Source: Bacteroidales bacterium
GTDB lineage: Bacteria; Bacteroidota; Bacteroidia; Bacteroidales; UBA932
Assembly (NCBI GenBank): GCA_017617655.1
Contig: JAFZVU010000055.1
Location: 1-41,416 of the forward strand
Direction: 5' to 3'
DNA length: 41,416 nt
The position numbers and the translations under genes were made by a program. The notes below the pieces were generated by a model. That model was given only the letters and a program-made list of their open reading frames with translations, was not told the DNA's origin and ran no database searches. Shown in pieces: positions 677-41,269 of this stretch (position 1 is its first letter; each line of letters begins with the position of its first letter).

Positions 677-1071
677 GACAATTAATGCATGAGGCGGCTC
701 CGCAGCCGTCAGATCCGGCGCTGTTCCGGCTGGAATTGAATAGCAAGCTGGCTGCCGTTGAGCAGATTAAAGCATATCGTGACCGCGAGTACCGCCGCAG
801 CCGCCATACACTACGCATCGTCTTTGCTGCAGGAATCCTGGTCGGTGCCGCCCTTGCCATCCTTATAATCCTGCATCCGTTCGATATGCCGGATATCGCG
901 GGCATCTTTTCTGCGATAAATCCAGAAGCAACTGATGACAACTATTTGACCTATGTCCTGATACTGCTTGGCATACTGGCCACAGCCGGCGCCATCGTCC
1001 TTCCTCTTACAATATCTCGTCGCATGTCACCGTTTTCTTCATGGAAGAATCATTTTGTTTCCGAGGTATGA
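661..1071 (+). CDS. Probable membrane anti-sigma / sigma-associated protein
   Basis: A 136-residue protein with a charged cytoplasmic-looking N-terminus (residues 1-50, EIRQLMHEAAPQPSDPALF...) and two hydrophobic helices at about 51-71 and 95-116, ending in a short basic tail. Its ATG lies inside the sigma gene (16-base overlap), the usual arrangement for an ECF factor and the membrane protein that holds it inactive. No zinc-binding HxxxCxxC anti-sigma motif is visible, so the anti-sigma role rests on gene order and topology only. A hairpin overlaps its stop codon. Confidence 0.6.
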   Translation: MEDEIRQLMHEAAPQPSDPALFRLELNSKLAAVEQIKAYRDREYRRSRHTLRIVFAAGILVGAALAILIILHPFDMPDIAGIFSAINPEATDDNYLTYVLILLGILATAGAIVLPLTISRRMSPFSSWKNHFVSEV

Positions 1072-1096
1072 GAGTGCAGGGGCGATCTCACATACC
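1065..1096. repeat. Inverted repeat over the anti-sigma stop codon
   Basis: GGTATGAGA (1065-1073) pairs with TCTCACATACC (1086-1096), one bulge. A second complement, TCTCATACC, sits at 1161-1169 and could compete for the same arm. No T-run follows, so this is not a typical intrinsic terminator. Confidence 0.45.
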
Positions 1097-1231
1097 AAGG
1101 AACGTTATTATATGGAAACTGCGAGAATTTGCTCCGCAATATTGGAGTTATAGCATATAGTCTCATACCATGAAACAACTTGCTGATGCGGGGGAAAGCG
1201 CTCGCCAGTAGCAAAGATATTTGCTTCTACT

Positions 1232-1317
1232 GATGGTAGTGGTACAATATTGAACCGACTGCCATCAAATTAGGCCGATATTGAGGGTAGTGGTCCATAA
1301 ATCAGCCGACTACCATC
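1232..1317. repeat. Doublet of 35-nt palindromes (GGTAGTGG...CCGACTACC family)
   Basis: Two 35-base copies at 1232-1266 and 1283-1317, start-to-start 51 bases, identical at about 28 of 35 positions by eye. Each is GRKGGTAGTGG - variable loop - CCGACTRCCATC. The first arm of copy 1 (GATGGTAGT) also pairs perfectly with the last arm of copy 2 (ACTACCATC, 1309-1317), so the doublet can fold as two small hairpins or one large nested one. Confidence 0.75.
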
Positions 1318-1398
1318 ACTTTCGCTTTCCGAAGGCTTTGCTTTCCTTAGCAGCTGTTAATCCACCGCACAGATTTGATTTTGCCATTTCATGCAAAA

Positions 1399-1527
1399 GT
1401 GTGCGCCGCTCACCCCCTCTGGAGAGCCCTTCAGGACCTATCGGCAGCGCACACCCCTCGTTTTAAAGGCCAGTGTGCGCCGGCAACATGCGTTATACGC
1501 TCTGTGAGGCTGGTCTGCGGCGCACAC
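1399..1527. repeat. Doublet of 55-56-nt palindromes (GTGTGCGCC...GGCGCACAC family)
   Basis: Copy 1 is 1399-1454 (arms GTGTGCGC / GCGCACAC). Copy 2 is 1473-1527 (arms GTGTGCGCCG / CGGCGCACAC, a perfect 10-bp stem). Start-to-start spacing is 74 bases. The ~35-base interiors are not alike, while the terminal arms are conserved. Confidence 0.75.
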
Positions 1528-1581
1528 TTCTGTAAAATGGAAAGAGCAACCCCTTTCTGGCCGTGGTAGGAAAATCTCAGT

Positions 1582-1646
1582 GGGTTATTCTCGGACAGCA
1601 GCAAGAGCCATCTAAAGAGCTCCTGCTGCTGGACGGGAAATAACCC
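1582..1646 (-). repeat. 65-nt structured hairpin, copy A of the TTATC...GATAA family
   Basis: Outer arms GGGTTATT (1582-1589) and AATAACCC (1639-1646). Inner stem CAGCAGCA (1596-1603) with TGCTGCTG (1624-1631). Apex GAGCCATCTAAAGAGCTC (1605-1622). Read on the minus strand it aligns along its length with copy D at 7350-7414. Confidence 0.8.
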
Positions 1647-1705
1647 CATCTCCACGACCGGTTTATCTGCTGCTAATCCTCAGAGCTGCGAGCCACACAA
1701 ATGCA

Positions 1706-1772
1706 GAACTTATCCTCGCCAGGCAAAAGGGAGCCATTAGGCAGAGCTCCCTGCCTGGCGGGAGATAAGTTC
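1706..1772 (-). repeat. 67-nt structured hairpin, copy B of the TTATC...GATAA family
   Basis: Outer arms GAACTTATC (1706-1714) / GATAAGTTC (1764-1772), a perfect 9-bp match. Inner stem CGCCAGGCA (1717-1725) / TGCCTGGCG (1752-1760), also perfect. A GGGAGC/GCTCCC pair lies next to the apex. It has the same orientation as copy A, from which it is separated by 59 bases. The stem sequence differs from A, C and D while pairing is kept. Confidence 0.8.
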
Positions 1773-1811
1773 GGTGCTTTTGCTGTAGCCATAGTATCCA
1801 CTCGCCACCTA

Positions 1812-1934
1812 GTGTACAAGGTCTGCTAAAATGTTGCATGCCTTGTACACTTCAAAAACGTAAAGGATTGTAAGTCAGGGATTTGTAAAATATAGGTGCA
1901 CAAGGCCTGCGACAAATTTGCAGACCTTGTACGC
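1812..1934. repeat. Doublet of 39-nt palindromes (GTGTACAAGG...CCTTGTACAC family)
   Basis: Copy 1 spans 1812-1850 (arms GTGTACAAGG / CCTTGTACAC, perfect 10 bp). Copy 2 spans 1896-1934 (GTGCACAAGG / CCTTGTACGC, with inner CTGC/GCAG). Both are exactly 39 bases and start 84 bases apart. They lie just past the 3' end of the leftward flavodoxin gene. Confidence 0.8.
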
Positions 1935-1958
1935 ATGCTGACGGCAATGGCAGATAGG

Positions 1959-3296
1959 CTACGCAGATTCGATGACTTTCTTGTAGGGGGCGATCATGCC
2001 GTCGGTCATCTTGGAGCCGAGCTTGCGCTTGAGCTTGGGATTGTTCATCATGCCGCCCACGAGGTACATCGACAGAGAGGTCTTCCATTGCTTCTGCGGG
2101 AAATCGTACTGGCCGTGGCTCTTGAAGAACTTGTGGTCGGCGCGCATCAAGCCGCGCATCATGTAGATCAGGTCGCGGAAGATCTTCATGCCGCCCACTC
2201 CCAGGAAGTTCTGGGGCGGAGTGTAATGCTTCTCCATCGCGTAGGCCACCGTGGCGGCGAGGGCGTCGATCTCCTTGTCGACATCATGCTCGTCGGTAGC
2301 CACTCCTGCCAGAAAATTGCCACCGACCTGGGCGCGAGCCTCCAGCAGCATACGGAGGTTCTCTTCGACAGCATAGTCGCCCTCTACCAGATAGCCGAAG
2401 GGTGTGCCCATAGTGACGGTGCGGTGACCGTTGCAGAACTGGCGGTCGTCGTAAATCTTGAAGCGCGAGCCCATCGAGTGGTCCTTGATGCGGAAGGCGT
2501 AGAGGATGGCGTCGTGCTTGTGAATTGTGTTCCGAAGGAAATCGTCGAAACCGTCCTTGTAGACGCATTTGCCGGTGGCGGCGCAGCTGAAGCAGCTAAG
2601 GCAGCCTCCCATGAACGGGAAATCCTGTATATTGATGACGTCGCAGCCATAGGGGAAGACGGCGACGAAACGGTCTATCATGGCCTTCAGCCCACTGTCC
2701 TCCGGCAGGAGGTCGGTGACTATCACAGCTTTCTTGCTCTCGTCGTGCTGCACTGGCTCCGGAACGCTAGCAGAGTGCCTGATGCCCTCGCCAGCTGCTG
2801 TCTGCGGTCTTTTGAATTCGCCGCGGGAAAGCTTCCACAGAGTGAATTCCAGCCAGTCGACGGCCTGCTTCTGTCCTTTCTCCGACAGTATATCATCCAT
2901 ATCTGCCGACAGACCTTCGAGGAACGGAATGCCCATGTCGGCGCAATTGTCTTCAATGAAGCGGTGGGCCGTTATGTCATAGAAATGCTTCGAAGTAGTT
3001 AGCTGGGTGGCGGCTTTCCCCGAGAAATCCAGGCCGGCAGCTTTCAGCAGTTCGATGAAGCGGTGCAGCTGGCTGGGCACAAGGAAAGTATAGACCGGGT
3101 AGCAGAATATAATCAGGTCAGCCTTCCGGACGGCCTCCAGCGCACCGGAGAAATCTTTCTCAAATGCCTTTATCTTCTGTCCGGCGTCCAGATAGCTGAA
3201 GCTGTGGCCGGCAAACTTCTTCTCAAGGAACAGCGCAGTATGCAGCGTAATCGAGTTCTTGCCCTTGGGGCTTCCGTTAATTACAAGGATGTTCAT
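1959..3296 (-). CDS. Tandem flavodoxin-fold oxidoreductase with an Fe-S cysteine motif
   Basis: A 445-residue cytoplasmic flavoprotein made of two flavodoxin-like halves. The N-terminal half (about 1-165) opens with the FMN phosphate-binding loop of NADPH-dependent FMN reductases (MNILVINGSPKGKNS) and has YPVYTFLVPSQLHRF. The second half begins near residue 190 (KKAVIVTDLLPEDSG) and carries GGCLSCFSCAATGKC, a C-x2-C-x2-C-x5-C spacing like iron-sulfur flavoproteins of the Isf type. An alpha-helical tail of ~100 residues ends the protein. Most relatives have a single such domain, so this is a fused form. It is divergent from the porin gene, and a -7 box on its strand lies at 3317-3324. The electron acceptor is unknown. 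Confidence 0.75.
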   Translation of the reverse strand: MNILVINGSPKGKNSITLHTALFLEKKFAGHSFSYLDAGQKIKAFEKDFSGALEAVRKADLIIFCYPVYTFLVPSQLHRFIELLKAAGLDFSGKAATQLTTSKHFYDITAHRFIEDNCADMGIPFLEGLSADMDDILSEKGQKQAVDWLEFTLWKLSRGEFKRPQTAAGEGIRHSASVPEPVQHDESKKAVIVTDLLPEDSGLKAMIDRFVAVFPYGCDVINIQDFPFMGGCLSCFSCAATGKCVYKDGFDDFLRNTIHKHDAILYAFRIKDHSMGSRFKIYDDRQFCNGHRTVTMGTPFGYLVEGDYAVEENLRMLLEARAQVGGNFLAGVATDEHDVDKEIDALAATVAYAMEKHYTPPQNFLGVGGMKIFRDLIYMMRGLMRADHKFFKSHGQYDFPQKQWKTSLSMYLVGGMMNNPKLKRKLGSKMTDGMIAPYKKVIESA

Positions 3297-3380: not shown

Positions 3381-4436
3381 ATGAGAACAGTTTTCTTCAG
3401 AATCAGCCGGACGATCGTGCTGGCGGCCATTCTGGCTGGGGCGTGGAGCGTATCCTATGCCCAGTCGAAGATTCCTGGGTATCTTTCTGTCGGCGGATGG
3501 ATCGACGGACAGTATTCTTACGAGAGACAAGAAAATAATAATAAAGGTGTCGAGGCGTCCAGCACCTTCCATACAAGGCGTGCCCGTCTGGATGTGAAGG
3601 GCGGCATTACGGACAATATTGAGTTCCGTCTGCAGGCCGACGTGTCCGGCACGCCCAAGATGATCGATGCGTTTGTGAAATGCAAGATTAACAAGCAGAT
3701 CAATTTCGAGCTCGGACAGTTCAAGACTCCGTTCACCCTTGAGAACCAGTACTCTCCGCTGAATCAGGAAGGCATTGACAATGCCATAGTGATCAACAAG
3801 CTGGCCGGCTTCAGCGACGTGCTCGGAGGCAAGCGCGGGGCAGGCCGTGACATGGGAATAATGCTCTATGGAACAGCGTTCGATGACAACGGCGCCAGCT
3901 TCCCCTTACTCAGCTATTACTTGGGTGTATTCAACGGCAACGGTATCAACACCAAGGATGACAACCAGTCAAAAGACCTGATCGGCAGGATAGACATCCA
4001 TCCGTTTGTAAAGGAGCTGACGCTGTCGGCATCCGGAGTGCGCGGGACGTACGACAACGGAGTAGACAAGCATGCCCGCAACAACCGCTATTCTTTCGGC
4101 GGCGAATATAAGGACGATGCGCTGACCCTGCGTTCCGAATTTGTCCACGCCGATATCCAGTACGCATCTGCCTCGACCGAGTATGTAGGATTCTATGTAG
4201 TAGCCGGTTACTGGTTCCCGATAGGTGAATCAGCAAAGATGCGCCCCGTGGTCAGGTTTGATCACTACAATGAGATTGGTGTAATCCAGAAGATGAAGCA
4301 GACCAACTATATGGCCGGTCTGGATATCTGGCCCGAGAGCCACCTGCGCTTCCAGCTGAACTACACTCTGCTCAACCGCGAGCGATATGACAAGCCCGGG
4401 CATCTGTTCCAGGCGATGTTTTCTGTCAAATTCTAA
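3381..4436 (+). CDS. Outer-membrane porin, phosphate-selective O/P type
   Basis: A 351-residue outer-membrane beta-barrel. The ATG at 3381 is followed by a signal peptide (residues ~1-30, ending SVSYAQ). The mature protein begins with the Porin O/P pattern: GGWIDGQYSYE, then FHTRRARLDVKGGITDNIEFRLQADV and INFELGQFKTPFTLENQYSP. Alternating amphipathic strands run to a terminal aromatic (MFSVKF), typical of barrel proteins. The frame is open upstream of 3381, but a promoter box at 3351-3358 and the signal peptide fix the start. The transporter gene starts 13 bases after the stop, so the two form an operon. The substrate is probably an anion, which is inference from the family. Confidence 0.85.
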   Translation: MRTVFFRISRTIVLAAILAGAWSVSYAQSKIPGYLSVGGWIDGQYSYERQENNNKGVEASSTFHTRRARLDVKGGITDNIEFRLQADVSGTPKMIDAFVKCKINKQINFELGQFKTPFTLENQYSPLNQEGIDNAIVINKLAGFSDVLGGKRGAGRDMGIMLYGTAFDDNGASFPLLSYYLGVFNGNGINTKDDNQSKDLIGRIDIHPFVKELTLSASGVRGTYDNGVDKHARNNRYSFGGEYKDDALTLRSEFVHADIQYASASTEYVGFYVVAGYWFPIGESAKMRPVVRFDHYNEIGVIQKMKQTNYMAGLDIWPESHLRFQLNYTLLNRERYDKPGHLFQAMFSVKF

Positions 4437-4449
4437 AACCTGAACATAT

Positions 4450-5745
4450 ATGACTAAAACAAGAAAAGCATTAGTGAACGACGAGTGGATAGTAGTCGTT
4501 CTGGGATTTATCGTGCTGGCACTGTGCGTGATATTCCCCAGCGCAATGAACAGCCTCAAGATCCCCGGAATCCTGGCGAGCCAGAGTGCAAGCGCGCTCG
4601 GCGACTGGCAGGGATGGCTGGGCGCAGTCTATATCTTCCTATTTGTGCTGGCGCTGCTCTACCTGTCATCAGCCCTGACCGGAAAACCTTTCAAGGGCAT
4701 ATTCCTCTCATTCCTGGTAATATGCCTGTTGACGGTAATCTCGCTGGCGCTGGCGACAATCCCTTTCTGCAAGAAATACGGCCTTGAAGCAGTGCTGTTC
4801 GCAGTCATACTTGGCTTGATAATCAGCAACTTCTTCAAGATCCCTGAGTGGCTCAAACCGGCCATCCAGAGCGAGTTCTACATCAAGATAGGTATCGTCT
4901 GCCTCGGTGCGACAGTGCTCTATCAGGAAGTGCTGAAGTCCGGCGCATACGGCCTGGCACAGGCCCTTATCGTGGTGCTCTGCGTATGGTACTTCGGCTT
5001 CTGGGTTTCCCGCAAGGTCTTCAAGGTAGATGACGAGATGTCGACCATGCTTGCAAGCTCGGTAAGTATCTGCGGCGTTTCTGCCGCCATCGCCACCTGC
5101 GGAACCATCAAGGGCGACCAGAAGAAACTCTCATACGTCATTTCCCTCGTCATGGTAGTGGCCATCCCCATGCTCTACATCATGCCGCTGCTCTGCAACT
5201 GGCTGCTGCCGCTGTTCTTCCCCGGCAACGAGCTGGCTCAGGCCCAGGTGGCAGGAGCCTGGATCGGCGGAACCATCGACACAACAGCCGCAGTGGCCGC
5301 CTCCGGCGGAATCCTTGGAGACGAGGCCGGCCAGACAGCCGTAATCGTGAAAGCTTCTCAGAACGTGCTGATTGGCGTGGCAGCATTCCTCATCTCGCTG
5401 TTCTGGTCCCTCCGCGGCACCAAGGGTGTCGAGAAGACTTCAGGCAAAGTGATCTGGGAGCGCTTCCCCAAATTTGTTGTCGGAATGGTAGTGGCATCCA
5501 TCGTGTTCAGCCTCTTCTTCGCCGGCAGCAGCCCCGAAGGCATCGCCTACAAAGGCCTGGCAAAGAACTTCCAGAACATCTTCTTCTCGATAGCATTCGT
5601 CTGCATCGGTCTGGAGACCAACTTCAAGCAGATCTTCGCCAAGGAGAACAACCAGTCCCTCAAGGCCTTCCTCACCGCCCAGGGCTTCAACATCCTGTTC
5701 ACCCTGCTCGTAGCATCCCTGCTCTTCGGAGTCATCAAGAACTAG
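4450..5745 (+). CDS. YeiH/UPF0324 family transporter (putative sulfate exporter family)
   Basis: A 431-residue polytopic inner-membrane protein with about 11 hydrophobic helices. Family hallmarks are ILGLIISNFFKIPEW, KIGIVCLGATVLYQEV, SSVSICGVSAAIATCGTI and GAWIGGTIDTTAAVAASG, with the final FKQIFAKENNQ-FLTAQGFNILFT segment. It carries an extra N-terminal hydrophobic region relative to the short form of the family. It lies 13 bases downstream of an O/P-type porin, which suggests that an anion crosses both membranes through this pair. The name 'sulfate exporter' is an annotation habit; the real substrate is not shown by the sequence. A hairpin terminator follows at 5769-5794. Confidence 0.85.
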   Translation: MTKTRKALVNDEWIVVVLGFIVLALCVIFPSAMNSLKIPGILASQSASALGDWQGWLGAVYIFLFVLALLYLSSALTGKPFKGIFLSFLVICLLTVISLALATIPFCKKYGLEAVLFAVILGLIISNFFKIPEWLKPAIQSEFYIKIGIVCLGATVLYQEVLKSGAYGLAQALIVVLCVWYFGFWVSRKVFKVDDEMSTMLASSVSICGVSAAIATCGTIKGDQKKLSYVISLVMVVAIPMLYIMPLLCNWLLPLFFPGNELAQAQVAGAWIGGTIDTTAAVAASGGILGDEAGQTAVIVKASQNVLIGVAAFLISLFWSLRGTKGVEKTSGKVIWERFPKFVVGMVVASIVFSLFFAGSSPEGIAYKGLAKNFQNIFFSIAFVCIGLETNFKQIFAKENNQSLKAFLTAQGFNILFTLLVASLLFGVIKN

Positions 5746-5768
5746 CAGCAATACGAATTTAAATAGAA

Positions 5769-5794
5769 AACGGGAGGCCATATGACCTCCCGTT
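5769..5794. terminator. Bidirectional hairpin terminator
   Basis: AACGGGAGG (5769-5777) pairs with CCTCCCGTT (5786-5794). The A-rich run before it supplies a U-tract for the leftward gene. It sits between convergent genes and overlaps the stop codon of the DUF2442 gene. Confidence 0.75.
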
Positions 5795-6212
5795 ATGCTG
5801 CTATATATTCCTGTCCAAGTTCCCTGATCTTGGACAATATCTCCTGTTCTTTCTCTTTAGACGGTTTTTTGACGCCGTTGATATAGTTCCTCAGCAGAGT
5901 TGCATTATACCCGAATTTCTGTGCGAAACCGGCTATGTTAATCTCGGGATGCGAAAGGAAGAAGACCTGCAGCGCCGTCGGCTCTGCATCGTCATAGAAG
6001 AAGCTCTCAATGCTTACGTCTTCATCTAGCTTCGGCCAATGAAAACCGATGGGACTCGTCTCATAATCGTTCCTTTGCTCATCGGTTGCAGTTCTGAGAT
6101 GCTTGTACCATAATAGGGATTGGCGATAAGTCTTGCCGTCATCGCTCAGGCCGTAAAGCCAGTCACCGTCAAACCATATTTTACTGATCGTTTTCATCTC
6201 CGAATATTTCAT
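5793..6212 (-). CDS. DUF2442 protein with C-terminal helix-turn-helix (candidate antitoxin)
   Basis: A 139-residue protein. Residues ~6-78 match DUF2442 (ISKIWFDGDWLYGLSDDGKTYRQSL, ending IGFHWPKLDEDVSIESFF). Residues ~85-135 form a DNA-binding fold of the Xre type (INIAGFAQKFGYNATLLRNYINGVKKPS), a common DUF2442-HTH layout. The first ATG (6212) lies 32 bases inside the upstream DUF4160 gene; an alternative ATG is at 6197. The overlap means coupled translation. DUF4160-DUF2442 neighbours are commonly predicted to be a toxin-antitoxin pair; the HTH would make this the autoregulating partner. Toxicity is not shown here. Confidence 0.8.
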   Translation of the reverse strand: MKYSEMKTISKIWFDGDWLYGLSDDGKTYRQSLLWYKHLRTATDEQRNDYETSPIGFHWPKLDEDVSIESFFYDDAEPTALQVFFLSHPEINIAGFAQKFGYNATLLRNYINGVKKPSKEKEQEILSKIRELGQEYIAA

Positions 6213-6432
6213 ACCAGCGGTTAACTATTATGTCTGCGTTCTCGTGGATTGTCTGTTCTATCCTGCGGAGATCGTTTGCTTTTATATTCTGCTCTTCTTC
6301 CAAGACGAAACCGTCTTCTTTCCATACAAACTTGGCGAAGCCGTTGTGCCCCCTGACATGAACGTGTACTGGCTCATGCTCTCTCGAAAAGAAGAAGAAT
6401 ACAAATCCGAATTGCCTGAATAACTCTGCCAT
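6181..6432 (-). CDS. DUF4160 protein (candidate toxin partner)
   Basis: An 83-residue protein starting at ATG 6432 (MAELFRQFGFVFFFF). The DUF4160 signature HEPVHVHVRG is followed by AKFVW and a helical end (RRIEQTIHENADIIVNRWYEIFG). An in-frame upstream start at 6480 is unlikely because the promoter box at 6450-6457 lies inside that extension. It overlaps the DUF2442-HTH gene by 32 bases. The promoter spacer contains an 18-base palindrome. DUF4160 proteins are small and conserved next to DUF2442 partners, but their biochemistry is not established. Confidence 0.8.
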   Translation of the reverse strand: MAELFRQFGFVFFFFSREHEPVHVHVRGHNGFAKFVWKEDGFVLEEEQNIKANDLRRIEQTIHENADIIVNRWYEIFGDENDQ

Positions 6433-6449
6433 AACTGTATCAGTTTCTA

Positions 6450-6481
6450 CAAAAATAGGTATTATTTTTAATACCAACAAA
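6450..6481 (-). promoter_or_regulatory. Complete promoter with palindromic operator for the DUF4160-DUF2442 pair
   Basis: On the minus strand, TTTG (6478-6481) is the -33 element and TATTTTTG (6450-6457) the -7 element, 20 bases apart, both full consensus. The spacer holds a perfect palindrome at 6458-6475, GGTATTA-TTTT-TAATACC, with 7-bp arms. A repressor bound there would block RNA polymerase. The HTH protein encoded in the operon is the obvious candidate. Confidence 0.7.
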
Positions 6482-6486
6482 TACTA

Positions 6487-7047
6487 TTATACAAACAACG
6501 CCCGGTACGCCTCGGCTTTTTTCTCGAGCGGGAGAGGGTAGGCGCGGGAGGTGGAGGGCATCCGCCAGAAGGAGAGGGTGCGGGTGCCGATCTGAAGGGG
6601 AGTACAGCCACCCATAGGCGGCTGGGCACAGCCGAAGGTCTCCACAATGACATCAGTGGCCTTCTGGCCGGTAGTAACAAGAGCGTTGCACAGCGGAATC
6701 CTCTCCAACAGCGCCGGAATATCGGTGGGCGTGACAACCTCCAGGAACTTGTCAGAAGCATTGTCCTGCAGCCGCCGCACCTCGCAGGCAGTATCATACA
6801 GCGCCAGCCTTTGCTCCCTGCAGAACGCCTTCACCTTCTCAACATCGAAACGCCTTTCCCCCACCACCGCAAACCACTCCCTGTCGCCATAGAACAGCAG
6901 CCCCATCGCCCGCCAGAAATCATTAGTCCAGTTCGGATAGTAGAACTCCATCGACCACCGCTTCTCCTGCGGCGGAAAACTCCCCAGAAAAAGGATCCGC
7001 GCAACCTCAGGCAGGAAAGGAGAAAAAGGGTGGAGTTCGGTGGGCAT
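6487..7047 (-). CDS. Uracil/hypoxanthine-DNA glycosylase superfamily protein
   Basis: A 186-residue protein related to the UDG fold. The N-terminus shows HPFSPFLPEVARILFLGSFPP, the family's first motif, then FYYPNWTNDFWRAMG, which matches the YY-PxNxFW segment of hypoxanthine-type (family 6-like) glycosylases. FWRMPSTSRAYP near the C-terminus is the second catalytic-loop motif (S-x-x-x-A type). The ATG at 7047 is preferred over a 20-residue in-frame extension because a -7 box (7067-7074) lies inside that extension. Its role would be removal of deaminated bases. It has its own promoter and is not linked to a repair operon. Confidence 0.75.
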   Translation of the reverse strand: MPTELHPFSPFLPEVARILFLGSFPPQEKRWSMEFYYPNWTNDFWRAMGLLFYGDREWFAVVGERRFDVEKVKAFCREQRLALYDTACEVRRLQDNASDKFLEVVTPTDIPALLERIPLCNALVTTGQKATDVIVETFGCAQPPMGGCTPLQIGTRTLSFWRMPSTSRAYPLPLEKKAEAYRALFV

Positions 7048-7066
7048 GGGGTCATTATTTGTTGCA

Positions 7067-7074
7067 CAAATATA
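7067..7074 (-). promoter_or_regulatory. Bacteroidota -7 box for the glycosylase gene
   Basis: TATATTTG on the minus strand, full TAnnTTTG match, 20 bases before ATG 7047. Confidence 0.6.
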
Positions 7075-7081
7075 ATACGGT

Positions 7082-7194
7082 TTCCTCAATATGAATCTGG
7101 TGCGCATTTCTTCATATTGTCGCAGAAATCGCGAGTTTTCACCGGAAAAGTGGCGACGAAATGAATCTCAGGCTTCCACATCCATATTGAGGAA
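7082..7194. repeat. 113-nt segment bounded by 12-bp inverted repeats
   Basis: TTCCTCAATATG (7082-7093) is perfectly complementary to CATATTGAGGAA (7183-7194). Nested inside are CAATATGAA/TTCATATTG (7087-7095 / 7111-7119), TTTTC-ACC-GGAAAA, and a direct repeat ATGAATCT (7091, 7161). It lies directly upstream of the glycosylase promoter. It could be a tiny MITE-like insert or a structured regulatory region. Confidence 0.55.
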
Positions 7195-7228
7195 CAGAAA
7201 TGAGTCGGAAGCGGCGTGAAAAGGAACG

Positions 7229-7294
7229 AAGGTTATCTCCAGCCAGCAAAGCGAACTCTCGGGAGGGCTCGCTTTGTCCGGTTAGGATAACCTT
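7229..7294 (+). repeat. 66-nt structured hairpin, copy C of the TTATC...GATAA family
   Basis: Outer arms AAGGTTATC (7229-7237) / GATAACCTT (7286-7294), perfect. Inner stem CAAAGCGA (7247-7254) / TCGCTTTG (7269-7276), perfect. The apex keeps ACTCTCGGGAGGGC. The orientation is opposite to copies A and B. Confidence 0.8.
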
Positions 7295-7349
7295 CTTTAG
7301 TGATTTGAGGCAGGGGCGATGGGAGGGTGATCGCGATGGTTTGGATATT

Positions 7350-7414
7350 GGGTTATCTCCAGTCCGCCAGCAGGAGCTCTTTGGATGGCTCCTGCTGCCG
7401 CCCTAGGATAACCC
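7350..7414 (+). repeat. 65-nt structured hairpin, copy D of the TTATC...GATAA family
   Basis: Outer arms GGGTTATC (7350-7357) / GATAACCC (7407-7414), perfect. Inner stem CAGCAGGAGC (7368-7377) / GCTCCTGCTG (7388-7397), perfect 10 bp. Apex TCTTTGGATG. Same orientation as copy C, 55 bases downstream of it. Confidence 0.8.
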
Positions 7415-7459
7415 CGCCGGACCGCCTCACACCTGCAAATCCTCTTATGGGGTTTGCCT

Positions 7460-7572
7460 TGGTCAGCACATTTTGGGCAATTCTTCCGGACTAAGGCAGC
7501 GAAAGCGCCAGTATCGCCGAATATCGCGCCATGGTCAGCACATTTCGGGCGATTCTTCCGGACAAAGGCAGC
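7460..7572. repeat. 41-nt direct repeat pair
   Basis: Copies at 7460-7500 and 7532-7572 differ at three positions by eye. Both contain GGTCAGCACATTT and ATTCTTCCGGAC. Copy 1 is itself palindromic when flanks are included (GCCTTGGTC 7456-7464 with GACTAAGGC); copy 2 keeps this only partly. Start-to-start spacing is 72 bases. Confidence 0.75.
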
Positions 7573-7654
7573 AACATAGATCCTTCGCCTCGCTCAGGAT
7601 GACATGATGCTCGCCGCAGCAGGAAAGAAGGGTCTGAGTGGGGCTGGCCAATCA

Positions 7655-7677
7655 TTACTGGGACTCTGTCCCAAACC
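7655..7677. repeat. Short hairpin repeat, shared with 41394-41416
   Basis: TTACTGGGACTCTGTCCCAAACC. The hairpin is GGGA-CTCTG-TCCC. The copy at 41394-41416 differs at three positions, two of which keep the pairing. Confidence 0.6.
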
Positions 7678-7713
7678 CTGCCGCTTCGGCCTGCTATCAG
7701 CACAGGCTGCCCA

Positions 7714-7799
7714 CACGGCCTACGCTAGCGCCTGTAGGCGCTAGAAGCGAACTTGGATTGGAGTGAGTGTAGCGCCTCCAGGCGCTATTGAAGGCCGTG
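7714..7799. repeat. Two short perfect palindromes inside an 8-bp clamp
   Basis: CACGGCCT (7714-7721) pairs with AGGCCGTG (7792-7799). Inside lie CTAGCGCCT-GT-AGGCGCTAG (7725-7744) and TAGCGCCT-CC-AGGCGCTA (7770-7787), both perfect and nearly the same sequence. The layout allows a three-way junction. It has no tRNA features such as a T-loop or anticodon arm. Confidence 0.65.
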
Positions 7800-7888
7800 C
7801 GGGTGGCTTGTGCGGATGACGGGCCTAACACTCACGGAACCCCCGGAGACCCTTCTTTCCTGCGGAAGGGCGAGCTCGCCGAAGGATC

Positions 7889-8863
7889 CTACTCCGCAAC
7901 GTAGCCTGCCATCAAGCCCTCCAGCCCGGCGGTGAGATCGCGGTAGGTGGTTTCGAAGTCGCCGGTGTACCACGGGTCGGCGACGTCGCGGTCGAGGCCG
8001 GCGTAGGACATCATCATGCGGACCTTGTGCTGCGGATCGTCGGGGATGATCCATCTCAGCATCCGGATGTTCGAGCGGTCCATGCAGATTATGACATCGA
8101 AGCGGTCATAGTCGGCCCGGGTGACCTCGCGGGCCTGCTTGCCGGGATCGAACCAGATGCCGTGGCGGTTGAGGCAGCGCTTTGCCGGAGGATAGATCGG
8201 ATTGCCAATCTCTTCAGACGAGACTGCGGCAGATTCGATATAAAAACGATCCTGCAGGCCGCGGGCCTTCATCATATCTTTCAGCATGAACTCAGCCATC
8301 GGACTGCGACAGATGTTTCCATGACATAGGAAAAGTATCCTGGTGACAAGTTCGAGCCGCAAAACCCTGATTGGACGGTCCTTGCCCTGATACTGGGTCT
8401 CGTCGATGCAGGTCTCGCCGGTGGGAATGAAGCCGCACTTCTCCATAACGCGGCCGGAAGCCGGATTGTCGATGAAATGGCCGCTGACCAGCGAACGGAT
8501 GTCAGTAGTGGCGCGGATATGGTCCAGCATCAGCCGCAGAGCTTCAGTGCAGATGCCGCGGTTCCAGTAGGGGCGGGCAATCCAGTAGCCCGTCAGAGGT
8601 TCACCTTCGCGCGCCGGCAGCTCGCATTCGCAGGCAGGGCCGTAGCCTATGGCGCCGATGACTTCACCGGTTGACTTGAGCACGATGGCCCAGTTGCAGT
8701 CGTTGTTGAATACGGTACGGATAATCTCCAGACTCTCCTCGACACTCTGGTGCGGCGGCCAGCCGGCCCTCGGACCAACCAGACGGTCAGAAGCCCACTT
8801 ATAGAGAGTTGCGGCGTCGCTCTCCCTCCATGGCCGCAGCAGTATCCTGTCAGATTCCATCAT
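7889..8863 (-). CDS. GNAT acetyltransferase fused to low-molecular-weight protein tyrosine phosphatase
   Basis: A 324-residue two-domain cytoplasmic protein. Residues 1-~172 are a RimJ/RimL-type GNAT domain (ILLRPWRESDAATLY, GEVIGAIGYG, YWIARPYWNRGICTEALRLML, NPASGRVMEKCGF). Residues ~174-324 are a complete LMW phosphatase. It has the CX5RS loop CHGNICRS (Cys180, Arg186) and the general-acid motif DPWYTGDFETTY (Asp296). The linker has no ATG or GTG; one TTG lies just before the phosphatase. ATG 8863 is preferred to a TTG at 8869. It is the last gene of a leftward operon, 2 bases after the M28 peptidase stop. Both domains look active; the substrates are unknown. Confidence 0.85.
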   Translation of the reverse strand: MMESDRILLRPWRESDAATLYKWASDRLVGPRAGWPPHQSVEESLEIIRTVFNNDCNWAIVLKSTGEVIGAIGYGPACECELPAREGEPLTGYWIARPYWNRGICTEALRLMLDHIRATTDIRSLVSGHFIDNPASGRVMEKCGFIPTGETCIDETQYQGKDRPIRVLRLELVTRILFLCHGNICRSPMAEFMLKDMMKARGLQDRFYIESAAVSSEEIGNPIYPPAKRCLNRHGIWFDPGKQAREVTRADYDRFDVIICMDRSNIRMLRWIIPDDPQHKVRMMMSYAGLDRDVADPWYTGDFETTYRDLTAGLEGLMAGYVAE

Positions 8864-8865
8864 TG

Positions 8866-10128
8866 TCAATATTGAGAAATGAAGTCGGTGATAAGGCGGA
8901 AGACAGGCTCGTAGCTGTCGAAGACAGCATGCTTGTAGTCGTCATAGATGGTGTGGTAATACTGAAAGGCGTCTCCTTCTTCATTTTCCAGGAAGATGCA
9001 GGGAACGTGACGTGTGGCGAAAGGGTAGTGGTCGCTGTTGGCAGCCAGCTCGCCGCGGTTCAGAGACTTGAAATAGCCCTTGCTGGCGTTGATCTGCTCC
9101 AGGAGAGCAAAGCCGCGCATGCCTTCGTCGCTGCACTCGCAGTACTGCACCGGATTATTGTCGCCGATCATGTCGATGTTGAACAGATACCTGATCTGCT
9201 CCAGCGGCACGACGGGGTGCTGCGCGAAGAACTCCGAACCGCGCAGGTTTGCATCCTCGCCAGAGAATGCGATGAAATACATATCGTATGCAGGACGATT
9301 CTTGGCATAGTATGCCGCCAGCGTCACTATTGTGGCAGTGCCGGACGCATTGTCGTTGGCCCCGGCATAAAATACCTTTCTGCCCAGATTGCCCAGATGG
9401 TCGTAGTGCGCAGTGAAAACGTAGCAGCTGTCGTGACTCGCGCCTTCGACCTTAGCTATGACATTGAAAAGACCGTAATTGTCCAGAAACTTGTTGTCGA
9501 TGTTTGCACGCACTCTTTTTACCCCCTCTATAGCCTCTGGTGTCACCCATATAATGGGCTTGTCCACTACATGGTCGCCATAAGCCTTGTAGAATTTGAT
9601 AGGAGAGGTCCATGTGTAGATGAGTCCGGCATTGGGACATTCGCCGGCCTTCTGAAGTTTCGAGAAAACATCGCGGTGCTTGTAAGTGAACCAGAACTCG
9701 CATACCACCATGCAGTCCGCATATTCGGGCCTGGCAAGGTCTGCATAGATACGGTCGGGGTTGAAGTCCAGGGTGTCGATGAAGTACAGCGGGAATTCGC
9801 CGCGGACGCCGGGCGAGTACTCGCGCATGGAGAAATCCACACCCGGAATGAGCTTTTTCCCGTCAGCCCACAGTCCCATCTTTCCGGAGAAAGTATTGAT
9901 ATCAATTGCGAAATGCTGGAGGGTCACTTTATCAACCCCGGCCTTTGTAAACTCCGTCCGCAGATACTCTCCGGCCTTGTTGGCACCGTCTCTGGCGTAG
10001 CCGCGGCCCTGATATTTAGCGGAACTGAGCTCCTTGACCACCTGTTTGTATAGGGGCATGTCCTGAGCCCCCAGCTGCATGGGGCCGATGGCCAGCAGCA
10101 GGATTATAGCGAGATGTCGTATGTGCAT
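8866..10128 (-). CDS. Secreted M28-family zinc aminopeptidase
   Basis: A 420-residue exported protein with a signal peptide (residues 1-21, ending LGAQ). The M28 di-zinc ligands are all visible: TAHYDHLG (His and Asp), GANDNASGTA (bridging Asp), FSGEDANLRGSE (catalytic and ligand Glu), NIDMIGD (Asp) and FQYYHTIYDD (His). The ~180 residues between signal and catalytic domain include a PA-like or lid segment. It should trim peptides in the periplasm or outside. It lies 6 bases after the DUF3237 gene and almost touches the fusion gene downstream. Confidence 0.88.
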   Translation of the reverse strand: MHIRHLAIILLLAIGPMQLGAQDMPLYKQVVKELSSAKYQGRGYARDGANKAGEYLRTEFTKAGVDKVTLQHFAIDINTFSGKMGLWADGKKLIPGVDFSMREYSPGVRGEFPLYFIDTLDFNPDRIYADLARPEYADCMVVCEFWFTYKHRDVFSKLQKAGECPNAGLIYTWTSPIKFYKAYGDHVVDKPIIWVTPEAIEGVKRVRANIDNKFLDNYGLFNVIAKVEGASHDSCYVFTAHYDHLGNLGRKVFYAGANDNASGTATIVTLAAYYAKNRPAYDMYFIAFSGEDANLRGSEFFAQHPVVPLEQIRYLFNIDMIGDNNPVQYCECSDEGMRGFALLEQINASKGYFKSLNRGELAANSDHYPFATRHVPCIFLENEEGDAFQYYHTIYDDYKHAVFDSYEPVFRLITDFISQY

Positions 10129-10134
10129 GATTGG

Positions 10135-10650
10135 TTAGAGGACTTTCCAGACGCGGAGGCAGATGCAGTCGGTGGCGGGGCCGGGCATGCATACGAAGAT
10201 TGCGTCGTTGAGCCAGTTGTATTTGCTGTCCTGCGGAGCCTCGAACTTCGGCGCGGTGCGGAAATAGAAGCTGGGAGCGCCATTCGCGTCACGCCCCATG
10301 GTGATCAGACCGCAGTTGCGGATATGGATGTACACGCCGTCGTCGGTCTTGATGGAGTAGATGGCCTCCACCTCGGTGCGGCCGTGCTCCTGGTCAATCA
10401 GCTGGTAGTCGGCGCCGCCGCCGATTATCTCGCCGTTCATGTCGGGGCCGGAGAAGGTGCCGCCGACGATGGGGATGACGTTGCGGATGCCGTGGGCAGT
10501 CTTGCCAACATTGTAGCCCGGGTCGCAGTTGACGCGGAGTTCACATACGAATTCAAGGCCGGGGCCCTCGGGATACGGAGGGTCGATGGCCTGCGCGCTG
10601 AAACTGAGAGACAGCAGCGCAATGGCGATTAGCATTGACAGCTTGTTCAT
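10135..10650 (-). CDS. Exported DUF3237 protein
   Basis: A 171-residue protein from ATG 10650, with a signal peptide ending SAQA (a TTG three codons upstream is an alternative). The rest fits DUF3237: GPGLEFVCELRV, VGGTFSGPDMNGEIIGGGADYQLI, YSIKTDDGVYIHIRNCGLI, SFYFRTAPKFEAP and YNWLNDAIFV. The family forms a small beta-barrel of uncertain function; most members are cytoplasmic, so the signal peptide is notable. It sits in the middle of the five-gene operon. Confidence 0.8.
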   Translation of the reverse strand: MNKLSMLIAIALLSLSFSAQAIDPPYPEGPGLEFVCELRVNCDPGYNVGKTAHGIRNVIPIVGGTFSGPDMNGEIIGGGADYQLIDQEHGRTEVEAIYSIKTDDGVYIHIRNCGLITMGRDANGAPSFYFRTAPKFEAPQDSKYNWLNDAIFVCMPGPATDCICLRVWKVL

Positions 10651-10666
10651 TGAAAACAATTGTTAT

Positions 10667-11554
10667 TTATTCGTTATGGTCGTGAAGCCATTCCAGAGCG
10701 GCCTCGAGAGGGGTTTCGGTGGTTACGTCGGGAACGATGGGGTCATCGCAGAACGACTCGCCGGTGCGGGCGATGTCGTCGCCGATGGTGAGGACGAGCA
10801 TAGCACCGTCAGGCAGGGAGAAAGACTGGTTGGAAGAAGCATAACCTGCAGTGGGTGAGCCGAAAGACTTGGCGTAGTCCAGACCGCGGAAGCATAGCAG
10901 AGTAGCCTCGCCGGAACTGCCTGTGCCCTCATCGGTAAGGAGTGCGACAGGGCAGGAGATATATGGCTGGCGGTCGACGCCGGCAGTGAGAGTGACGTAG
11001 TCCAGATTGATTGTCATAGTGCGGCGACGGGTGTGGAACCGCAGTATGTTGTCGTCAGGAAGGAAACGGTGGACGGCAGCGATCATAGGATACATGTTGC
11101 CGCCCCGGTTGCCCCGCAGGTCTACGACAACCCCTTGCGGAGTTCCTTGGATGGCGTCCAGCACAGTGTGGGCGTATTTCTCTCCTTCAGAGGAGTTCCC
11201 GGAGAAGGGGGGGAGCTTGATAAGGAGGATGCCGCCGTCGAGCTGTTCGACAGAAGGCATCTCCCATTCGGCTTTATCGTCTTCCTGCACCCTTCCTGCA
11301 GTCATGACGAAAGTATGTTTGCCGCCCGCTACCTTTCCGGCAGTCCAGACAACCTGCTGGGCCTCCTCCAGAGTCGCGGGCCTGGCTGCAAGCGCTTCTT
11401 TCTTCGCTGCATCCCACTCTGGACCCTGGGCATAGATGCCGAAGAGGCTCATAAGGCGGACAGCCTTGCGGACATACTGCGTGTTCGCATCACCACATGC
11501 CGCCACAAAGGCGGACAACAGGATTATGCTGATTAGTCTTTTCAAAGCAGACAA
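10667..11554 (-). CDS. S41-family peptidase lipoprotein lacking a PDZ domain
   Basis: A ~295-residue lipoprotein (lipobox LSAFVAAC). It has a C-terminal-processing-peptidase core: GGKHTFVM (the H-S/T region), GILLIKLPPFSG, GVVVDLRGNRGGNM, VALLTDEGTGSSGEATL (nucleophile Ser in GSSGE) and KSFGSPTAGYASSN. No PDZ domain lies between the N-terminal helices and the core, as in nisin-resistance-type S41 enzymes. The start is TTG (11554 or 11545); no ATG is available before the signal peptide. It begins 1 base after the flavodoxin stop, so translation is coupled. The substrate is unknown. Confidence 0.8.
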   Translation of the reverse strand: MSALKRLISIILLSAFVAACGDANTQYVRKAVRLMSLFGIYAQGPEWDAAKKEALAARPATLEEAQQVVWTAGKVAGGKHTFVMTAGRVQEDDKAEWEMPSVEQLDGGILLIKLPPFSGNSSEGEKYAHTVLDAIQGTPQGVVVDLRGNRGGNMYPMIAAVHRFLPDDNILRFHTRRRTMTINLDYVTLTAGVDRQPYISCPVALLTDEGTGSSGEATLLCFRGLDYAKSFGSPTAGYASSNQSFSLPDGAMLVLTIGDDIARTGESFCDDPIVPDVTTETPLEAALEWLHDHNE

Positions 11555-11555
11555 A

Positions 11556-12365
11556 TTATCTTACAACTTGTGTGAATTCAGGATCCTGGCCGTCCATGTC
11601 GAGGACGTAGATCTTCATGGCGCCGGGCATTGCGGGACCGGGACCGGCGGGAGCTTCAGCTTCGAAGATGTATTCAGTGCCGCCGTTGATGGCTCTTGAG
11701 CAAACGTTCTTGGCCTTGGCCTGGATCATGGGATAAGTGCCGACTGCTGCGTCGAAGATGGCAGCTTCCTCTTCGGTTGCGGGACGTACTGCAGAAAAAT
11801 CACCGGGCTTTTCGAACTCGCCCTCGAGGAAACCGTTCTCCTTGAGGAAGCGGTCGACCTCGGCAGGCATGGCGTTGATGCGGGCGGCCCTTACACCATA
11901 ACCGTCAAGCACTATAGCCGCGGGCTGGGCAGCCTTGACTTCCTTGATACCGTCGAGCAGACCGCCGCTGCCGAAGGTGCAGAACGGAACTATGGTCTTG
12001 CCGCTGAAATCTACGGTCTTCAGGAAACTGATAGCCGGTAGGGCGCAGGTGCCGAACCAGATGGGATAACCAAAGAATATTACGTCGTAGTCATCGAGGT
12101 TGGCCTTGATGGGGTTGACCTCCGGAAGATTGCCGGACTCCCTTTCTTCCATGCAGCGCTGGATGGTCTCCTGATAGCTGCCGTTGTAAGGGTTGACGAC
12201 GGTGATCTCTTCAATGTCGGCTCCGAGCTTGTCGGCGATCTGCAGGGCTACGGCTGCAGTCGTGCCGGTCTGGGAATAATATAGTACGAGAGCCTTCGAA
12301 TCTGTTTTCTGAGAGCAAGAAACTGCCATAAGCATAACGGCTAATGATAGGATGAATTGTTTCAT
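11556..12365 (-). CDS. Flavodoxin-fold lipoprotein
   Basis: A 269-residue protein with a lipoprotein signal (MLMAVSCSQK, Cys17). It then has a flavodoxin domain with the FMN phosphate loop YYSQTGTTAAVA, FFGYPIWFGTCALPAISFL and PFCTFGSGGL, as in secreted flavodoxins of Bacteroidota. Residues ~190-269 form an extra C-terminal region with a Pro-Gly-rich stretch (APAGPGPAMPGAM). It is the first gene of the leftward operon and has a -7 box at 12394-12401. Its location at the periplasmic face suggests electron transfer outside the cytoplasm. Confidence 0.8.
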   Translation of the reverse strand: MKQFILSLAVMLMAVSCSQKTDSKALVLYYSQTGTTAAVALQIADKLGADIEEITVVNPYNGSYQETIQRCMEERESGNLPEVNPIKANLDDYDVIFFGYPIWFGTCALPAISFLKTVDFSGKTIVPFCTFGSGGLLDGIKEVKAAQPAAIVLDGYGVRAARINAMPAEVDRFLKENGFLEGEFEKPGDFSAVRPATEEEAAIFDAAVGTYPMIQAKAKNVCSRAINGGTEYIFEAEAPAGPGPAMPGAMKIYVLDMDGQDPEFTQVVR

Positions 12366-41180: not shown

Positions 41181-41269
41181 AACTGCCCTCCTTACGGCTC
41201 TCGGGCAAATTGCTCGGCGAATAGACTACGATATTCGCTACGCAATTTCCCTCCGCCAGGAGGGCAGTT
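41181..41269. repeat. Long near-continuous palindrome (89 nt)
   Basis: Arms AACTGCCCTCCT (41181-41192) / AGGAGGGCAGTT (41258-41269), then GGGCAAATTG/CAATTTCCC and GCGAATA (41217-41223) / TATTCGC (41232-41238). The apex is about 8 bases. It lies between the M48 gene and a terminator. Confidence 0.75.

Follow-up and report, generated by a model that had tools for sequence, protein, structure and literature searches.

An island of hairpins between converging genes

The window, that is, the whole stretch of 41,416 nucleotides analysed here, is contig C10 of a rumen Bacteroidales MAG (genome G000; 2.2 Mb in 88 contigs, 83.9% complete). A sigma-70-like gene (182-676) and a small gene of unassigned family (661-1071) lie on the forward strand and converge on an FMN-reductase-like gene on the reverse strand (1959-3296). 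The closest named records of the protein of the latter are from Bacteroidales MAGs of water buffalo forestomach (98, 96 and 95% identity). The gap between the converging genes is occupied by an island at 1063-1938, which holds four hairpin pairs (B, C, D/E and F) and a half-decayed fifth pair (A).

A sequence-only reading of this gap had described four palindromes, each present twice with preserved arms, and had judged such an arrangement unexpected by chance. The judgement on chance was borne out. When positions 1055-1960 were folded as single-stranded DNA, the energy was -184.2 kcal/mol; 20 dinucleotide shuffles averaged -126.8 (sd 5.9; z = -9.7), and none of them folded as well. Further, a strict ungapped hairpin finder detected two hairpins in the island, whereas 300 shuffles gave 0.04 on average and one at most. 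All four pairs exist, but the description of their partners as preserved copies held only in part, as indicated below for C and D/E, and pair A was added as a fifth.

Each hairpin was scored by the number of 200 shuffles that folded as well. In family A, the first hairpin (1063-1098) was matched by no shuffle, and the decayed partner region (1110-1172) was no better than shuffled sequence (88/200), although the alignment of the family to a sister-genome locus (G001:C171) extends to 1172. The hairpins of family B (1231-1267 and 1282-1318; 1/200 and 2/200) are each 37 nt long and start 51 bases apart. They are arranged directly (score 48.0 direct vs 25.0 inverted; identity 0.78 and 0.69, respectively), and GTAG was found within the stem. 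The family C doublet (1388-1532) consists of hairpins of 56 nt (1399-1454; 6/200) and 55 nt (1473-1527; 0/200), the second 74 bases on from the first. Its orientation scores were 19.0 direct vs 22.5 inverted; the partners are 57% identical either way and resemble each other mainly in their terminal arms. In the family F doublet (1809-1938), the hairpins lie at 1811-1851 (0/200) and 1896-1934 (5/200), with the second core 84 bases on and orientation scores of 47.0 direct vs 50.0 inverted. Among other doublets of the genome, that of the C62 family is direct (64.0 vs 41.5) and those of C44 and C88a are weakly direct. GT[AG]G was found at the hairpin foot in none of 16 F copies and none of 16 C copies.

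The remaining pair consists of the bulged hairpins D (1582-1648) and E (1706-1772), neither matched by any of 200 shuffles, with the motif of E 125 bases from that of D. At 70% identity, D and E represent separate subfamilies of a single bulged-hairpin class and not one palindrome present twice; they have a common bulged base motif and different apices. At the other end of the window, a strong 42-nt hairpin was observed at 41207-41248 (0/200), and 31 bases resembling its core are also present in locus L101 and in loci on contig C70 of G001.

Copies of the families and the doublet rule

When the whole island was used as a query against G000, at least 62 matches were obtained; by place, with the window counted, these included C at a minimum of 18 places and hairpin D at a minimum of 7. 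These counts are lower bounds because 40 of the 65 candidates were scored. When F was the query, all 29 candidates were scored; 24 places covered 115 or more of the 130 bases, and one further place is a fragment of 28 bases where a contig starts. Whole doublets were found at 24 of these 25 places. An earlier F pattern had returned, in stretches of G000, 12 doublets and four clusters with one recognisable hairpin, and those four clusters also align as doublets. For C, 17 of the 18 known places were examined and the copies aligned; 16 were complete and the other was cut by a contig end. Family B has one other place in the genome (C76:15372), which is a single hairpin, and family A has one other match, which is partial. 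A third candidate place of B (C84:16976) was removed, as it matches window positions 1324-1356, outside B. Thus, the rule that copies come in pairs held for F and C and failed for the B copy and for several members of class D/E that have no partner.

Beyond G000, family F was present in 7 of 21 congeneric genomes and families A and B in 3 of 21 each (E up to 0.01). The whole island as a query matched in 5 of 18 congeners and in none of 12 genomes from other families of the order. In G001, contigs end within C elements (position 1 of L196; the end of L013); C repeats break MAG assemblies, and the copy counts in G001 are therefore too low. A further repeat of about 85 nt adjoins an F copy at locus L097 (4488-4579) and has matches at several places in G001, G004 and G014.

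The context of 32 C and F copies was 13 converging gaps, 12 co-directional gaps and one diverging gap; of the other six copies, four lay at the ends of stretches and two inside a predicted ORF of 130 codons or more. All gaps longer than 100 bases in the same stretches, those with C and F included, comprised 19 converging, 32 co-directional and 14 diverging gaps. The context of the copies agrees with extragenic landing. The scarcity of copies in diverging gaps would also be expected if the hairpins were RNA structures at gene ends (terminators, mRNA ends or attenuators) maintained by selection on the transcript, and the stable folds would suit such structures.

Fixed spacing, free linkers and the stems

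The starts of the two F hairpins were 84 bases apart in all 35 detections by a pattern that allowed 60-110; some of these loci overlap and most places were scored twice because both strands were read. The C hairpin starts were 73 bases apart in 15 of 16 copies and 74 in the window copy. The alignment of 16 F copies spans 130 columns with no gap, and that of 16 C copies spans 145 columns with one gap column, which stems from an additional base in the window copy. Because copies had been trimmed to a fixed length before alignment, the pattern served as a second measure of spacing. The distances differ by family: 72-73 in A and the C62 family and 51-52 in B and its relatives. Parsimony counted 347 changes in F, of which 186 fell within the 46 linker columns, with no change in length, and 255 changes in C. 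A spacer that keeps its length and varies in sequence is not new in kind, since REP dimers elsewhere are described likewise in the part of PMC3733652 consulted.

Such exact distances in F and C would suit a host dimer, either a regulator or a nucleoid protein, for which the doublets would be paired sites spread by recombination or conversion and not by transposases. The island, however, combines families that are unrelated in sequence, and this and the results below make binding by a host dimer a highly improbable explanation.

With regard to RNA structures, a linker that conserves length and not sequence is unfavourable. Further, changes on both sides of a base pair were few, at 1 of 26 pairs in F and 3 of 28 in C. 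Rfam returned three matches, to microRNA and lncRNA models, at 33.5, 24.6 and 14.2 bits, all far under the gathering scores of 100, 90 and 50, respectively. The stem of D/E agrees better with an RNA: in a set in which G000 copies were mixed with those of relatives, 12 of 19 pairs were changed on both sides, and one-sided changes and G-U steps were few, unlike in F and C. These double changes would also fit arms held complementary as DNA, by selection or by copying of one arm from the other.

RAYT-like genes and the doublets beside them

The sequence-only reading had noted no transposase in the window and had proposed a search of the genome for a gene of a REP-associated tyrosine transposase (RAYT). 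A PF01797 scan of the G000 genome picked out four open frames (304-328 codons) with weak matches, two of which were just over 23 bits; when the four proteins were scanned, all fell below the cut-off of 23 bits (20.5-21.9). A profile built from the four proteins found nine matches in G000, all on contigs other than that of the window; of 21 congeneric genomes, 19 had one match or more. The best NCBIfam match of all four was REP-associated tyrosine transposase NF047646, at 19.4-38.8 bits against a cut-off of 80. Residues H67 and H69 (H-x-H), Y127, N131 and W146 are invariant among them, and the proline that follows the asparagine in the Y---NP motif is present in one of the four. Among solved structures, the profile gave nothing below E 0.087, with an IS200-like transposase at 0.43. 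We term these genes RAYT-like, after the model that the four proteins resemble best at scores below its cut-off.

The flanks of 26 RAYT loci, three of them cut by a contig end, were compared with each other; this approach was adopted because local folding around the genes was too noisy. A repeat common to both flanks was found at 15 of the 26 loci, including 5 of the 9 in G000; at the other 11 loci, no such repeat was found. The RAYT at C37:20168 is flanked by family F on both sides, family C lies 176 bp from that at C12:19721, and family A lies on both sides of that at G001:C171. For family B, no adjoining RAYT was found; the RAYT at C88:9171 lies between doublets that have a spacing of 51-52 and a core resembling B. 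Further, an F-like doublet, its spacing also 84, accompanies a RAYT of G005 whose identity to the F RAYT is 66%. Thus A, C and F are each linked to a specific RAYT, as REPIN families are.

When 48 RAYTs were arranged in a tree, the words repeated in their flanks tracked clades: L011 and L148 share the F word, L159 and L162 share the A word, and L012 and L123 have related words. At least 20 of the 48, that at C12 included, had no repeated flank word at the threshold used. A shared flank repeat was detected in 17 of the 71 pairs of RAYTs that are 60% identical or more, although this figure may be inflated by the common genomic position of close pairs, in 2 of 138 pairs at 40-60% and in 5 of 919 pairs below that or without a match. 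In another species, the equivalent gene end at locus L014 (3' of 6098) carries different palindromes, some of which resemble a word beside other RAYTs of the genus.

The flanking doublets bear on two of the alternatives raised above. Neither an RNA structure nor a site for a dimeric protein, both of which the sequence-only reading had offered, explains why the same doublets flank RAYT genes, and the tie between families and RAYT clades is a further difficulty for a host dimer. A repeat on both sides at 5 of 9 RAYT loci in G000, which at C37:20168 and C62:7878 consists of whole doublets in direct order, is instead compatible with the doublets being solo ends left by larger RAYT-carrying transposons after loss of the gene, and not units that move themselves. 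However, copies without a RAYT far outnumber RAYT loci (24 F places compared with one F RAYT found in G000), and the copies measured retain their full length. We consider an origin as solo ends very improbable.

Class D/E and a second island in the window

A second group of hairpins was found in the window. An E-like bulged hairpin of class D/E lies at 7228-7295 on the reverse strand, as identified by pattern and a pairing check, and a D hairpin lies at 7350-7414 on the same strand, 121 bases from its E-like partner, where D matches. Beside them is a doublet at 7455-7572, with two matches to L153, one of 80% over 118 bases and one of 72% over 116 bases, which resembles the doublets on both sides of the RAYT at C87:41928.

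Pairing in class D/E is loose. Distances of 125, 121, 123 and 122 were observed, but also 102 and 286, and several hairpins lack a partner at about 120 bases. Among the RAYT loci examined, no cognate of the class was found. Of the five distant RAYT pairs that share a flank repeat, four share a D/E-class hairpin, which thus crosses RAYT clades, and the fifth (L128 and L143) shares another sequence. D had appeared by distance to be the likely cognate of the RAYTs at C37:60483 and C78:19047; this was dropped because C78 has its own repeated word and because of the four distant pairs above. Likewise, E was dropped as the cognate of the RAYT at C88:30800, since that gene has its own flanking repeat. 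Class D/E occupies the same places as the other families, and we leave it outside the REPIN-like filing given below.

Filled and empty sites in sister genomes

At locus L106 (contig C40), G004 and G014 have the border 3519|11386 without a C element, and G004 has the border 3706|11850 without C. G001 carries a C element at both borders and has the gene order of G004 and G014. In G000 (3519-11850), C elements are present at both borders as inverted copies, and the segment of about 7.9 kb between them is inverted relative to G001, G004 and G014. Most simply, C would have been inserted at both borders, and the inverted copies would then have recombined in the lineage of G000. The inversion may possibly be an assembly error at the repeats, though the copies differ. 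The two G000 copies carry mixed sequence states, and crossover or conversion between them is likely.

Locus L097 (contig C12) has a C copy at 3526-3669 that G001 and G004 lack and an F copy at 4353-4476 that G014 lacks. At a further C site, G004 has a related C-like doublet together with a RAYT, the protein of which is 68% identical to that of C12. Of six sites that were aligned, one, that of the C copy at L097 10610, is represented by diverged sequence only; at another, G014 retains a remnant and the doublet in G004 is a different one. The flanks at the six sites are diverged, and no clean insertion junction with a readable target was found among them. As judged from these genome comparisons, families C and F appear to be mobile, being present at sites that are empty at the orthologous positions of sister genomes.

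Signs of recombination between C copies are in line with the spread proposed for sites of a host dimer, but the insertions where relatives have empty sites are not. Presence that differs at the same site among sister genomes likewise does not suit RNA structures under transcript selection. This explanation is weaker for the few compensatory changes in the C and F stems, for the lack of any Rfam family at its gathering score, and also because the families at orthologous places differ; we regard it as quite improbable.

A probable pile-up of REPIN-like elements

We conclude that the island is very probably a pile-up of REPIN-like non-autonomous elements served by several coexisting RAYT-like lineages that are encoded elsewhere. 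The suggestion of REP/BIME-like elements spread by a transposase-like enzyme therefore fits best among those made from the sequence, and dispersed paired copies and RAYT-like genes were both found. Each element would be a pair of hairpins at a nearly fixed distance. For A, C and F, and by resemblance for B, a dedicated RAYT-like HUH/tyrosine protein would recognise the single-stranded hairpins, presumably with the pair as the unit. By analogy with the systems described in PMC8266576, PMC3116915 and PMC8049555, as far as the excerpts used here extend, it would cut the pair out and join it elsewhere as single-stranded DNA. The elements would be copied into intergenic gaps, of which this converging gap would have received several, and the RAYTs would be active today.

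We file A, C and F as REPIN-like because they are paired and linked to RAYTs, although C and F are without a GT[AG]G foot; the term means that they work like REPINs, and the claim does not extend to REPIN status in the strict sense. B is provisionally placed with them by resemblance. We further suggest, tentatively and with the balance somewhat against it, that the long Bacteroidales RAYT-like proteins (about 300-330 residues) recognise a unit of two hairpins in part by the distance between them. Spacing would be specific to the clade and the linker free, as if a dimer measured it, and the D/E hairpins beside these units would be tied to no clade, with arms kept complementary as DNA.

If the pile-up interpretation is true, a single rumen genus contains numerous RAYTs paired with hairpin families at varied stages of divergence, several per genome, and sister species supply filled and empty sites. 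Co-change of RAYTs and hairpins, the pair and its spacing as the recognised unit, and inversions driven by the repeats would then be testable.

Comparison with known systems

Among the open-access literature matches listed, no description of these hairpin families was found. The REPINs of Pseudomonas fluorescens SBW25, according to the portions of PMC3116915 and PMC8049555 used here, are likewise extragenic palindrome pairs with a variable spacer and preferred distances; their families are tied to specific RAYTs and form higher-order clusters beside them. REPIN hairpins are inverted to each other, whereas an inverted order is not clear in B, C and F. The present hairpins are also longer (37-67 nt), several unrelated families share one gap, and the spacing in the measured copies shows no change in length.

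The REPtron/TnpAREP systems, as presented in sections of PMC6006769 and PMC8266576, resemble those described here in having proteins with HUH and tyrosine motifs, genes flanked by their own hairpin family, and several types per genome, each with its own family. C and F differ in having no GT[AG]G foot, the mark of a canonical REP. In the classification of PMC6006769, TnpAREP subclass 2.6 of Bacteroidetes likewise has atypical hairpins, and its proteins have a median of 179 residues, compared with about 300-330 residues for the present proteins, which we do not place in that classification. For the long subclasses 2.1 and 2.3, the sections consulted report no REPs; long RAYT-like proteins with dedicated hairpin doublets would be an addition to that picture.

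The GTAG/CGTC REPs, REP dimers and TIRtrons, as covered in the extract of PMC3733652 used here, include homodimers and heterodimers that lie mostly downstream of genes. C and F differ from these in being without the GTAG foot tag, and F in its exact spacing in the detections, whereas class D/E resembles a REP heterodimer.
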